Assembly: GCA_013286145.1 (NCBI GenBank)
Contig: JABDGH010000002.1
Span: 46,728 to 110,727, forward strand
Direction of reading: 5' to 3'
DNA from: Verrucomicrobiota bacterium
Lineage (GTDB): Bacteria > Verrucomicrobiota > Verrucomicrobiia > Methylacidiphilales > UBA1321
DNA: 64,000 nt
The translations under genes and the position numbers were made by a program. The stretch's first letter is position 1, and the number at the start of each line of letters is the position of its first letter. Below, in pieces: positions 4,912 through 17,648 of this stretch. A model generated the notes under the pieces. That model had not been told where the DNA came from, made no database searches, and worked only from the letters and a program-made list of their open reading frames with translations.

Positions 4912-6420
4912 TCAAGGAGAGGCTGTCGCCGCAGGCTGAACGGAAAAGAGATACACCTCGGTGCCGGGCAATTCCTTTTGCTCAAGCAGATGGTAGCGGG
5001 ATTGCAGCCAAGGGAGGAGTTGGTGTTGCCGATCACCGTGATCCAGACGTGCACAAATGACGGCAAACCGGCCCGATCCGTCAAGCTGATCCCTGAAATT
5101 GCGTACATCCGTATCGAAAGTAGCCGGATTCAGGACGCTGAACCCGAGGATGGGAGCCGATCCATGATAGTAACGGGCAACGACCTCCCCAAGATAATGC
5201 GCGCTGACGACGATAACCTTGGGTTTGGCATCCAGTTGCTCCACAAACCTGGAAGCTGCGCGCAGATCTTCCCGTCCATACTCGGGGCTGAAATAGAAAT
5301 GATAAAGCGCCAGCGAAAGAAATAGGCCGTAAAGCACGGCAATCCACCGGAGAAACAGGCCGTCCCGCCATAGGGCACGCACTCCAACAGCCATGATCAA
5401 CCCAAAAGGGATCAACGCGAGAAAGGCATAGCGGGGATTATACGTGACCGTTGGCTTGAGGAGGCTGATCACGGCGGGGCCAAGTAAAAAGATGCAGAGA
5501 CCGCCGAACCCAAACGTGAATAAAAATAAATCCTTCCGCAGCGCCCAAAGTCCGCGACCCGATATAACCACGATCACCATCAATGCCACCAGCGTGAGAA
5601 CCGTTTGCGCCGGGTGCAGGGAGAAGTATTTCGCGCCCATCGTTTGCAGGTCATTCGTGCTGGGGCCCAAGTCGAATCCGAATCCAAAGGAATAAAATGT
5701 GTAGATAATCGCCGACCAGGGAGGTCCCTTATAAAACTGTGCGCCCTCGGGTAAATTGGAAACCTGCACCATCCGAATCAGCCACGGGACAAAAAGGGCA
5801 AAGGAAATGATTAGCGTCACGAGAAGGCTAATCGAACGCATCGGGCCAAGTTTTTTCCATTGAACGAGAAGGAGTAAACCGCACAACCCAAGTAAAAAAA
5901 AGCCGTAGGAGAACGTGTAGTTGGCCAGAACCGATAAGAAGCCGAAGACGATCAAATAACCGATCTTCTTTTCCTGGAAAAAAAGAATCAGGCAGAGAAG
6001 GGCCGCGCTGGCCTCCAATCCCAGCAGCGCGTACATCCTCATTTCATCGCTGTATCCGAGATGAAAGGGTGATAGTGACAGGAAGGCTGCCATGATCCAC
6101 GCGGTTCTTGTATCCAGCACCCGACAACCGATCAAAAAGAAGATTCCACAGGTTAGCGCGCCAAAAATTGCGCTCGGAAGTCGCGTCCATGTCTCGGAAT
6201 CGCCGCCTTTCAGCCACTGTTGCATGAAAAGGTAATAGAGTGGCGGTTTATTTGTTTCCGTTTCCTGAAGGGCAACGAGCATTTGCGGCCAGGGCAACCG
6301 ACTATTTTTCAACGTCAGGATTTCATCATACCAATAGCCCTGTTGGTTCAGGCTGATGAAACGTAATAGAAACGCCACCGTCACGATAAGCCCAAACGAA
6401 ATGGCCTTGGAGCGGTTCAT
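4912..6420 (-). CDS. glycosyltransferase family 39-like membrane protein (PMT/ArnT-like)
   Basis: WYDEILTLKNSRLPWPQML...NKPPLYYLFMQQW signature and many TM helices. Confidence 0.85.
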   Translation of the reverse strand: MNRSKAISFGLIVTVAFLLRFISLNQQGYWYDEILTLKNSRLPWPQMLVALQETETNKPPLYYLFMQQWLKGGDSETWTRLPSAIFGALTCGIFFLIGCRVLDTRTAWIMAAFLSLSPFHLGYSDEMRMYALLGLEASAALLCLILFFQEKKIGYLIVFGFLSVLANYTFSYGFFLLGLCGLLLLVQWKKLGPMRSISLLVTLIISFALFVPWLIRMVQVSNLPEGAQFYKGPPWSAIIYTFYSFGFGFDLGPSTNDLQTMGAKYFSLHPAQTVLTLVALMVIVVISGRGLWALRKDLFLFTFGFGGLCIFLLGPAVISLLKPTVTYNPRYAFLALIPFGLIMAVGVRALWRDGLFLRWIAVLYGLFLSLALYHFYFSPEYGREDLRAASRFVEQLDAKPKVIVVSAHYLGEVVARYYHGSAPILGFSVLNPATFDTDVRNFRDQLDGSGRFAVICARLDHGDRQHQLLPWLQSRYHLLEQKELPGTEVYLFSVQPAATASP

Positions 6421-6434
6421 TATAAAAACCGGGC

Positions 6435-7421
6435 TTACAGGCTGTGGTCATCCGCCACGACATAGAGCGGGCGGCTAAGGGACTGCCTGTAAATCCTCGA
6501 GATGTATTCGCCGAGAATTCCGACCGAGATGAGTTGTGCGCCGCCAAGCAGCAAGACAATCATGAGCAGGGATGTCCACCCCGGTGGATTGGCATTGAGT
6601 ACCCATTTTCCATACAACGCATAGCCGCCGTAGAGAAGCCCCAGCAAGATCGCTCCCAGGCCGCAGCCCGTCGATATTCTCAACGGCAGTGAGGAATAGC
6701 CAAAAAAAGCGCTGGCGGCCAAGTTCATTAACTTACGCAGCGTATATTTGGTTTCCCCGGCGGCACGTTCGGGTCGGTCGTAGGGAACGCCCACCTGTTT
6801 AAATCCGACCCAGCTTCTCAGTCCTCGCAACAAAAGATCCTTCTCGGGCATTTGTTTGATGATATTTGCGGCACGACGGCTGATCAGGCCGAAATCGCCC
6901 GCATCCAGCGGAATTGAAACATCGGCCATTTTTTGAAACAGAAGATAGAAAATTTTGTAGGAGAGCTTCAGCCAAAGCCCCGAGTCTCTTCGCTTCCGAA
7001 TGCCATAGACGACATCGTAACCTTTCTCGAAGTGACTCAGGAATGCCGCGAATAGCTCGGGCGGATCTTGCAGATCGGCGTCGATGAAAATGATGGCTTC
7101 GCCGGAAGCCTTCTCCAGCCCCGCCATCAGAGCAGCCTGATGGCCAAAATTTCGTGAAAATCGCCGAAGCAAAAGTTTGCCGGGGAATAGGCTGGCTTGA
7201 TCCAAAATTCGTTGGGCTGAATCGTCAACGCTGCCGTCATCAACCAGGATCAATTCCCATGTATAGCGATCCAATTGACGCACGGTCGCGGCAAGCCGCT
7301 CCAAAAGAAGCGTGATCATCGCGGCTTCGTTGAAGACCGGAATGACGATGGAAATTTTGGAACCGGTCGGAACGTTGGCCATATCGGTACGAGTGTGACG
7401 CTTGGAGGATGAAAATAGCAA
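6435..7421 (-). CDS. glycosyltransferase family 2 (dolichol-P-mannose/ArnC-like) with C-terminal TM helices
   Basis: SIVIPVFNEAAMITLLLERL...LVDDGSVDDS...IFIDADLQDPPEL. Confidence 0.92.
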   Translation of the reverse strand: MLFSSSKRHTRTDMANVPTGSKISIVIPVFNEAAMITLLLERLAATVRQLDRYTWELILVDDGSVDDSAQRILDQASLFPGKLLLRRFSRNFGHQAALMAGLEKASGEAIIFIDADLQDPPELFAAFLSHFEKGYDVVYGIRKRRDSGLWLKLSYKIFYLLFQKMADVSIPLDAGDFGLISRRAANIIKQMPEKDLLLRGLRSWVGFKQVGVPYDRPERAAGETKYTLRKLMNLAASAFFGYSSLPLRISTGCGLGAILLGLLYGGYALYGKWVLNANPPGWTSLLMIVLLLGGAQLISVGILGEYISRIYRQSLSRPLYVVADDHSL

Positions 7422-14273: not shown

Positions 14274-15303
14274 TGATGCTCACCGCAATTTCCGGCACGG
14301 TTTGCGCGGCGATATTCACGCCAACTGGACACGATAATCTGGAAAGAGCGCTTTCGCCACCGATTTTTTCAGCGAGGAAATGTTCGCGAATCGTCCGGGC
14401 TTTGCGTCGACTGCCGATCATTCCGAGGAAGGCAAAACCGTGGTCGATCCAGTGCCGCAGCACGAGGGCGTCGTGACGATGGCCGCGCGTCACGATCAAT
14501 CCGAAAGCGCCATGTGCGGGCAGGGGTTCTCGCAAATTCTCTCCCCAATCGCCGACGCGCAAAGTGACTTCGCGTGGAAAGAATTCGTGATTGGTCAATG
14601 CGGGACGATCGTCGAAGACGGTGACGGCAAAATCGAGTCCCAGCGCGAGGGGCGCAACGGCCTGCGCGATATGTCCCGCCCCGGCAATCCAGAGCGCGCA
14701 GGGTGGCGACACTGTTTCCCGGTAGCGCCAATTTTCCCCAGCGGCTTCAGTTGCATCCGCCCACGCAATCTGATCATCCATCGTCACACCCCAGATGCGT
14801 TTACTCTGCCGCCGGGCCAATTCATTCCAAATCGGTGCGGCGGAATTTATTCGTGGCAGGATGACGCCGCTGACCCGTCCTCCGCAGACCAAACCGTCGT
14901 CCCAGCCAAAATCGTGATCCAAAACGAGGTCGAAAGTTTCCGGCTTGCCCGTTCGCAACGCCTGCCGCGCTCGATCCTGGATTTCCGCTTCAAGGCAGCC
15001 GCCGCCCATCGTTCCCACGATCCGGCCATCCTCGAAAAACAGTGCCTTCGCGCCAACTTTTTGCGGACTCGATCCGCGTACCTCGGTGATGATCCCCAGC
15101 GCGACCGGTTCCTTTGCCGCTACCGTAGCGGAGAGCGATTCATAAAACGTGGCCACATGGACAGGATAGCCGGGTTGTGCCCGATGCCAAGGGTACTTGT
15201 AAGAGGTGAAACCAATTTGTTTTTCAGTTCCGTCATCCCGAGCTTGTCGAGGGATCAGACACGCTTTTATTTCCCTGAAAGTTCGGCCATCACGAAAAGG
15301 CAC
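14164..15303 (-). CDS. XdhC/CoxI family protein (molybdenum hydroxylase maturation)
   Basis: VALGIITEVRGSSPQKVGAKALFFEDGRIVGTMGGGCLEAEI...AGAGHIAQAVAPLA...IGSRRKARTIREHFL. True start probably downstream of 15303 (e.g. GTG at 15156) because the first codons read through a dispersed repeat. Confidence 0.9.
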   Translation of the reverse strand: MPFRDGRTFREIKACLIPRQARDDGTEKQIGFTSYKYPWHRAQPGYPVHVATFYESLSATVAAKEPVALGIITEVRGSSPQKVGAKALFFEDGRIVGTMGGGCLEAEIQDRARQALRTGKPETFDLVLDHDFGWDDGLVCGGRVSGVILPRINSAAPIWNELARRQSKRIWGVTMDDQIAWADATEAAGENWRYRETVSPPCALWIAGAGHIAQAVAPLALGLDFAVTVFDDRPALTNHEFFPREVTLRVGDWGENLREPLPAHGAFGLIVTRGHRHDALVLRHWIDHGFAFLGMIGSRRKARTIREHFLAEKIGGESALSRLSCPVGVNIAAQTVPEIAVSIIAQYINERASYVAQQNPSVSSPDPDRKPARLVGIAD

Positions 15304-15372
15304 TGTATTCTAATCTCCCAACTTTTTGATTGTCCATAATGCGTCTGATCCCTCGACAAGCTCGGGATGACG
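15231..15372. repeat. REPIN-like inverted repeat pair (family A)
   Basis: CGTCATCCCGAGCTTGTCGAGGGATCAGACACG ... GCGTCTGATCCCTCGACAAGCTCGGGATGACG. Confidence 0.9.
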
Positions 15373-15456: not shown

Positions 15457-15930
15457 CGTATGCGTCTCTCAAAAAAAGGTGAATATGCGGTGCGCGCCTT
15501 GGTTGAAATCGGATTTGAATCGCATCTCAGGCCCAACAGCCTGATCCAAATTTCGACTGTTGCCCACCGCACCAACATTCCTGAAAAATTTCTGGAACAA
15601 ATTCTTCTCGCGCTGCGTAACGGCGGCGTTTTGAAAAGCAAACGCGGCGTGGAAGGTGGCTACTCGCTCGCCAAGGCACCGAAGGACATCACGCTGGGCG
15701 AAGTCATCCGCCTGCTCGACGGGCCTCTCGCGCCGATCCCGTGCGTGAGCAAAAGCGCCTACGAACCCTGTTCGTGTCCTGAGGAGGAATCGTGCGGACT
15801 GCGTATCGCCATGCAACAGGTGCGCGACGCCATCGCGGGCATTCTCGACAGCTACACGCTTGCTCGTTTAATCGGCGAAGTGCAGAAGCATCGCACCACC
15901 AAAAAGACCGAATGGCAGTTTGAGATTTGA
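15457..15930 (+). CDS. Rrf2 family transcriptional regulator, IscR/NsrR-like Cys motif
   Basis: MRLSKKGEYAVRALVEIG...IPEKFLEQILLALRNGGVLKSKRGVEGGYSLAK...CVSKSAYEPCSCPEEESCGLR; ORF track start is 15367 but homologous start at 15457. Confidence 0.92.
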   Translation, partial: RMRLSKKGEYAVRALVEIGFESHLRPNSLIQISTVAHRTNIPEKFLEQILLALRNGGVLKSKRGVEGGYSLAKAPKDITLGEVIRLLDGPLAPIPCVSKSAYEPCSCPEEESCGLRIAMQQVRDAIAGILDSYTLARLIGEVQKHRTTKKTEWQFEI

Positions 15931-15948
15931 AGATCGTTCTCTCTCCGT

Positions 15949-15973
15949 CATCCCGAGCTTGTCGAGGGATCAG
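15949..15973. repeat. single arm of family A repeat
   Basis: GTCATCCCGAGCTTGTCGAGGGATC. Confidence 0.8.
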
Positions 15974-16001
15974 TTCAGTGAAAAAAGGGGGGCAGGCGTG
16001 C

Positions 16002-16044
16002 TTTATGGTGACAAATGAAGTCCCGTTCCGAAATCGAAAAGATG
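16002..16044 (+). repeat. left copy of ~42 bp direct repeat flanking AlbA_2 gene
   Basis: tttatggtgacaaatgaagtcccgttccgaaatcgaaaagatg. Confidence 0.85.
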
Positions 16045-16174
16045 ATAGCCGCATAAATTGTCCACAAGGCACCCCTCCAAACGGTTGTTCACGTAAAGAA
16101 AGCGTCTTTTGTACCGGGTTTAAGTATCCTCTAGTCTGTGCGCTTGGATAATTTCATGCCATTATAGCACGAGC

Positions 16175-17314
16175 ATGGACAACAAACCTCTCGCAGAGAT
16201 AACCGAAAGCGATCTACAAGAATTAATTGCGAACGAAGTAGCAGAAGGCCGCGCCATCGACTATAAACGCGAGACGAATTGTACTCAGGATGCTGAGAAG
16301 AAAGAATTTCTGGCCGATATTTCATCCTTCGCAAATACGTTGGGGGGCCATGTTATTATCGGAATGGAGGAGCAGAATGCCCTCCCAACAAATCTTGTCG
16401 GAATCCCCAAGGCGACTACAGATCAACTCATTTTACAAATCGAAGGGATAATCCGTGATGGACTTGATCCTCGCTTGGTTGGAGTTCAATCGCAAGTAGT
16501 TGATCTTAGCAACGGCAACGCTGCTTTAGTCGTGCGAATACCAAAGAGTTTCGCTGCGCCACACATGGTTTTCTTTAAGCGAACGTCTCGCTTTTATGCA
16601 CGTACCTCACGAGGAAAATATCAACTTGATGCGGGAGAAATACGACAAGCTTTTCTTCTTTCTGACACTTTAACAAAAAATATTGAAGACTTTCGTCTGA
16701 ATCGTTTGGCCGCCCTAAAGGCGAACGAGACGCTTTATCCGATGCCCGAAGGAGGCAAAATCGTCCTTCATGTCATTCCTGTAGGTGCTTTCACTGCCCC
16801 TGATGCGGTGGATCTTTCCAAGATCGACGCTACAGATGATCTTTGGAAGAATTTATTGCCTATGGCATCCTCGGGATGGGATCGGAGGTATAATCTTGAG
16901 GGTTGGCTAATGCACGCCGTAACTAGAGGCCAAGTTGAATCTAAGTCCTACACTCAAGTATTCCGAAACGGATGCGTCGAAATGGTGGAAGGCCGTAAGA
17001 TTACAGGAAGCCCATATGAAGCGTTTTGGGAACCAAATATCATCGAGGCGCTGGATAAGCTCTTAGTTTTCTTTTCAACGGCTGGATTACAACCGCCGTT
17101 GATTGTGATGTTGAGCTTTCTCGGGGTAGGCCAATGCGAAGCACGCGACATGAATCCTTTACGGAGGGTCGAATCTGCCCACCCTGTCGAGCGAGAAGAC
17201 ATTGTATGTGATCCTCTGTGGATTCAAGAGATAGGAAAATCTGCGACGGATATTCTTCGCCCAGCCTTTGATCGTGCATGGAACGCCTGCGGGTATCCCA
17301 AGTTTCCGTACTGA
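16175..17314 (+). CDS. Schlafen/AlbA_2 domain-containing putative ATP/DNA-binding protein
   Basis: EGRAIDYKRETN...KEFLADISSFANTLGGHVIIGMEE...FYARTSRGKYQLDAGEIRQAFL matches AlbA_2 pattern. Confidence 0.88.
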   Translation: MDNKPLAEITESDLQELIANEVAEGRAIDYKRETNCTQDAEKKEFLADISSFANTLGGHVIIGMEEQNALPTNLVGIPKATTDQLILQIEGIIRDGLDPRLVGVQSQVVDLSNGNAALVVRIPKSFAAPHMVFFKRTSRFYARTSRGKYQLDAGEIRQAFLLSDTLTKNIEDFRLNRLAALKANETLYPMPEGGKIVLHVIPVGAFTAPDAVDLSKIDATDDLWKNLLPMASSGWDRRYNLEGWLMHAVTRGQVESKSYTQVFRNGCVEMVEGRKITGSPYEAFWEPNIIEALDKLLVFFSTAGLQPPLIVMLSFLGVGQCEARDMNPLRRVESAHPVEREDIVCDPLWIQEIGKSATDILRPAFDRAWNACGYPKFPY

Positions 17315-17407
17315 CGTAGCTAAGTGGCAGATTGCCTCTTTGACAAAGAGGCTTCATCATAGCGCGGAATGATTGCGATTCCGAATATAAAAAGAGGACG
17401 GGCGCGT

Positions 17408-17449
17408 TTTATGGTGACAAATGAAGTCCCGTTCCAAAATCGAAAGATG
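17408..17449 (+). repeat. right copy of ~42 bp direct repeat flanking AlbA_2 gene
   Basis: tttatggtgacaaatgaagtcccgttccaaaatcgaaagatg; one substitution and one indel vs left copy. Confidence 0.85.
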
Positions 17450-17574
17450 CATGTTCCCCGAGTTAATGAGCAGGATATGTCTTCCTTTCAGGCGACAGGC
17501 CGCTTAGGATGTCTCGGTGATTGGGAGCGCGTAAAGTTTCACCGATGCGCTTTCCAGAGTATGTTCAGTCTATC

Positions 17575-17648
17575 CGGAGTGTAGCTTAGCTTGGTAGAGC
17601 GCCTGGTTTGGGACCAGGAGGTCGCAGGTTCAAATCCTGTCACTCCGA
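17575..17648 (+). tRNA. tRNA-Pro (anticodon UGG)
   Basis: Cloverleaf: acceptor CGGAGTG/CACTCCG, anticodon arm CCTGG-TTTGGGA-CCAGG, T-loop GGTTCAAATCC. Confidence 0.93.

Follow-up and report, generated by a model that had tools for sequence, protein, structure and literature searches.

Direct repeats around a Schlafen-type gene in a Verrucomicrobiota genome as relics of a dispersed hairpin-element family beside a candidate one-gene defence module

Do the direct repeats that bracket a lone AlbA_2 (Schlafen-like) gene next to a tRNA gene mark the ends of a small mobile unit, or do the repeats and the gene merely lie side by side? In the 64,000-nucleotide stretch of DNA that was analysed (the window), the two ~42-bp direct repeats of the original prediction were recovered at 16002-16044 and 17408-17449, on either side of the AlbA_2 gene (16175-17314, + strand), and tRNA-Pro (TGG; 17575-17648, + strand) lies at the predicted distance, 125 bp past the second repeat. 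The gene is indeed richer in A+T than its surroundings (GC 47% and GC3 44% versus GC 51-59% and GC3 58-69% in ten neighbouring genes), and a sequence comparison of the repeat with tRNA-Pro gave no match, in line with the earlier view that the two are unlike. A tRNA-integrated element was rejected as well: within the window, the tRNA-Pro end is not duplicated on the flanks of the gene. Upstream lies an Rrf2-family regulator (15469-15930, + strand), which in four congeners precedes another conserved gene instead, and tRNA-Pro stands in other, varying neighbourhoods in the congeners. The AlbA_2 gene is absent from seven congeners, in which searches located Rrf2 (six), a full-length match to tRNA-Pro (five) and RlmI (seven), all at separate places; given that these three markers occupy separate loci there, the site of the gene is a rearranged junction. 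In one congener (L150, G003:C128), the first 42 nt of tRNA-Pro recur at 1435-1476, between purM and the intact gene (5121-5195) and 3.6 kb ahead of the latter, a duplication suggestive of an insertion at this same tRNA gene; in another (G006, L149), purM abuts tRNA-Pro. A promoter and terminator scan found nothing.

An exact 28-base match is present twice in the window (0 expected from shuffles), and the likeness of the repeat pair extends leftward to 57 nt (15983-16039 versus 17389-17445, 88% identity). When the source genome (2.33 Mb in 103 contigs, 66% complete) was searched, the repeat core was found in ten copies by a pattern search allowing up to three mismatches, and a covariance model located the element at about 25 distinct places, scattered over many contigs and both strands, with a palindrome matched on both strands counted as one place. 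Alignment of the full element revealed outer arms AAAAAGGGGACAGGCAYGTTTT and AAAAGATGCCTGTCCCCTTTTT around a variable interior and two size classes of ~75 and ~115 bp. Compared with predicted genes the copies are mostly intergenic (with several overlapping ORFs that are short or ill-defined), and intact ones form long hairpins (z -1.3 to -6.3). Clusters of copies also occur on contigs C64, C23 and C36, with six copies within 8.5 kb on C64, where one core variant is common to three copies and a 94.9%-identical pair (6420-7331, L064) brackets a lone response-regulator gene. Both window repeats match the covariance model, at 15979-16064 (80 bits) and 17385-17469 (79 bits). The first (15983-16044, + strand) retains the left arm and the core and has lost the right arm after GATG; in the second (17389-17449, + strand) two arms are still recognisable and their pairing is lost. 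Neither forms the hairpin of a REPIN (fold z +1.8 and +0.5, respectively). A further repeat, CGTCATCCCGAGCTTGTCGAGGGATCAG, has perfect direct and inverted copies at 15231-15260, 15343-15372 and 15944-15973, directly left of the first window repeat.

As a family, the elements are dispersed extragenic copies built of two inverted REP-like arms, and they resemble REPINs, i.e. REP doublets forming hairpins (PMC3116915), in having such arms with a short spacer, in their ~75- and ~115-bp classes and in being extragenic and multicopy. They differ in that the one RAYT of the genome sits by a different palindrome and in that the window copies are decayed. The 66%-complete source genome yielded no RAYT with the REP of this family on its flanks, and a RAYT link for the window repeats was set aside, as the sole Y1_Tnp gene (RAYT-like, G000:C2:707-1072, L089) is flanked by another palindrome, GGGTGGCCCGGACAACTTGTTGTCCGGG; the GGGTGGCCCGGACAACTTGTTGTCCGGG palindromes around this gene represent a second REP family in the source genome. 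The window repeats had no meaningful match in Rfam, the element model produced few and weak matches in three congeners, and the repeat core was not found in relatives at up to two mismatches. On these comparisons, the window repeats are best described as two decayed members of a short, non-autonomous dispersed hairpin family (REPIN- or MITE-like). That they mark the limits of a ~1.4-kb unit able to move or excise is not supported, and most of the ~25 family members do not bracket a comparable insert; a generic dispersed repeat had been set against the cassette idea beforehand, and this is largely what the genome holds. The repeats probably did not define the cargo, and repeats and gene would be two unrelated things side by side.

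The rival account that fares best, itself rather unlikely, holds that two copies of the dispersed element recombined homologously to bring the gene in, or can do so to release it, such that the repeats would be real boundaries without being dedicated attachment sites. It draws on the cores of the two window copies, which differ at 2 of 43 nt (only 3 of 78 pairs are equally close) and lie between arms that differ at 6 of 18 (left) and 10 of 15 (right) positions, above the median divergence for pairs. Such a mosaic would be expected if crossover or conversion had homogenised the core, and it fits either local conversion between neighbours or recombination at the locus; the two copies also share their orientation, and the gene is foreign in composition and missing from congeners. 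By contrast, the pair is ordinarily divergent when the element is compared in full (distance 0.29, rank 41 of 171 pairs), and local copies on C64 share core variants too, which suggests that the family is commonly homogenised at the local scale. The interval is without a recombinase, and no empty site was found among the congeners, whose marker genes lie at separate loci. Recombination between the two copies is kept as a minor rival on account of their unusually alike cores and divergent arms.

What, then, does the gene encode? The assignment of the ORF to AlbA_2 proved sound (PF04326 SLFN_AlbA_2, E 5e-12, aa 24-151, 46.8 bits versus a cut-off of 25.3), and the 379-aa product consists of an N-terminal Schlafen RNase-like domain (aa ~24-160) and an undescribed C-terminal domain (aa ~170-379; coding part 16682-17311, + strand, from alignments). 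HMM searches matched the N-terminal domain to CbCash (9ylu), SLFN11, SLFN13 and SLFN14, and Foldseek matched the fold model of the protein (pLDDT 88) to SLFN13/14 and to the SAMD9 tRNase domain (E 1e-5 to 1e-4, probability 1.00), with low TM-scores over the full query. In the HMM alignment, E24, D29 and E66 fall on the catalytic carboxylates of SLFN13, which we take to be E205, E210 and D248, respectively. Among 43 relatives, E24 is invariant (43/43), position 29 is D or E in all (43/43) and E66 is kept in 33, within the conserved motifs E-x4-[ED]-[YF]-K and G-x-x-E; the three catalytic carboxylates of a Schlafen/AlbA_2 RNase are all in place in our protein. These profile and fold matches, together with the carboxylates, ally it with the Schlafen RNase domain (SLFN11/13/14, SAMD9 tRNase; PF04326), from which it differs in being a single AlbA_2 domain joined to a ~200-aa C-terminal domain unmatched in Pfam and PDB. 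That C-terminal domain had no Pfam match and no PDB sequence match, a fold search of PDB with its confident model (pLDDT 88, pTM 0.87) returned nothing at E<=0.001, and its alignment offered no pattern conserved enough for scanning. The protein matches no catalogued PADLOC system, the only hit being PDC-S50 (E 2e-4) over the N-terminus.

A scan of the genome collection identified 147 relatives and retained 80. They come from archaea and numerous bacterial phyla, and most are full length and 32-42% identical; within the phylum, the domain is found in 6 of 388 genomes (source genome included) with scattered hosts, and no homologue was found in phage records. Where the gene call was clear (76 loci), hsdS or hsdR is nearby in 12, and in 8 of the 76 hsdS and hsdR flank the gene on the same strand, within a type I restriction-modification (RM) locus; inspection of translated neighbours added a ninth such case (L144). 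About five sixths of relatives lack a nearby hsdS- or hsdR-like gene. PADLOC identified five HsdR and five HsdS among immediate neighbours, whereas the far control lists two type I methylases and neither HsdS nor HsdR, a comparison that rests on the 25 commonest families listed. By both the hsd counts and the near-versus-far control, the relatives are associated with defence genes. Relatives on plasmids adjoin integrases, and the one on Paenibacillus pAP1 has a SMODS synthetase and a SLATT_6 gene close by. In five loci, the AlbA_2 family gene directly adjoins one for an MgsA/RarA-type AAA ATPase.

The C-terminal domain also occurs with other partners. It is joined to TIR_2 in Planococcus and to Mrr_cat in Haloterrigena, where SIR2 adjoins, and it accompanies an Mrr_cat match below the Pfam cut-off in Haloarcula (L233). 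Two further haloarchaeal proteins (L234:3425-4600 and L235:3533-4651) carry the same C-terminal domain behind unrecognised N-termini, and the gene for the latter sits between Kiwa KwaB and BREX-5 PglZ genes. Bacterial immunity proteins that pair a sensor with an effector usually keep one C-terminal domain and vary the toxic N-terminus, and the best reading of the gene is a one-gene abortive-infection module that would be composed of an effector and a swappable sensor.

The gene itself is thus probably a recently acquired, anti-phage Schlafen-type RNase, to judge from these comparisons, and we infer its defence role along with its activity, trigger and target. The C-terminal domain would sense a phage-induced trigger and, until then, would keep the N-terminal RNase off; once triggered, the RNase would cleave tRNA or rRNA, such that translation would halt and the phage would not be propagated, which would constitute protection. 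Relatives flanked by hsdS and hsdR may be triggered when the restriction enzyme is inhibited, like PrrC, the anticodon nuclease embedded in EcoPrrI (PMC12707154). The analogy lies in the placing of an RNase-type gene within type I RM loci, as seen in some relatives; the domain is unrelated to that of PrrC, and the gene here stands alone. On the hypothesis that this likeness extends to function, relatives in hsd loci might guard an RM enzyme. The broader proposition, that the C-terminal domain, as yet unnamed, serves as a phage sensor shared across a modular family of one-protein defences whose killing domain is exchanged (Schlafen RNase, TIR or Mrr-type nuclease), and that members in type I RM loci guard the restriction enzyme like PrrC, we put forward tentatively, with less than even confidence.

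Could the gene instead encode an ordinary regulatory or nucleic-acid-binding protein that binds ATP and has no defence role, as database labels have it? Most plasmid homologues are annotated 'ATP-binding protein', and the gene is isolated here amid housekeeping genes: the Pfam families listed for the window are mostly of this kind, the gene has no recognised defence system next to it, and beyond it the window holds no defence cluster, PADLOC at E<=1e-10 giving four models (MzaA, mad2 and two TPR). Yet fold and residues match Schlafen RNases, the hsdS-gene-hsdR order recurs as described above, and the exchange of the C-terminal domain with TIR and Mrr, along with the Kiwa, BREX and SMODS neighbours, likewise speaks against so ordinary a role, which we consider improbable.

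Taken jointly, the likely account is that the repeats are relics of a genome-wide hairpin element and that the gene is a single-gene defence module, gained by horizontal transfer and lodged at a rearranged junction by tRNA-Pro; counting against it are the 10 of 43 relatives in which E66 is not kept, the lack of a recognised defence system beside the gene here, the many relatives with no hsd gene close by, the sub-threshold Mrr_cat match of L233 and the closeness of the two repeat cores, which hints that the copies recombined. Of the original prediction, an accessory, compositionally foreign gene from a defence-associated family is supported, and 42-bp repeats as the limits of a mobile or excisable 1.4-kb unit are not. 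A dedicated mobile cassette (integron-like or site-specific) with the 42-bp repeat as its recombination site is most improbable and disfavoured at this locus: there is one gene per repeat interval and the C64 pair likewise brackets a single gene, but the repeats are terminally palindromic elements on many contigs and both strands, mostly without an adjoining cassette, the hairpin is lost in both window copies, and no recombinase lies between them. An integron cassette was rejected, the repeat being a palindrome scattered on both strands and none of the listed ORFs of the interval being an integrase.

Direct repeats around an accessory gene can thus be relics of dispersed hairpins, which closes a false lead. 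Bacterial Schlafen defence proteins are reportedly the subject of a 2025 preprint by Taboada et al. that PMC12839542 cites. Schlafen RNases are on record as prokaryotic defence effectors (PMC12839542), so the kind is already known: those proteins likewise have a bacterial Schlafen RNase domain in defence contexts, and the BREX-linked ones are described as joined to a minimal histidine kinase and a wHTH instead of the C-terminal domain seen here (PMC12839542). What is possibly new is this C-terminal domain and its swaps. The family is small and widespread in bacteria and archaea, and it pairs one undescribed C-terminal domain with three effector classes; identifying what the C-terminal domain senses would join Schlafen, TIR and restriction-type immunity via one sensor.
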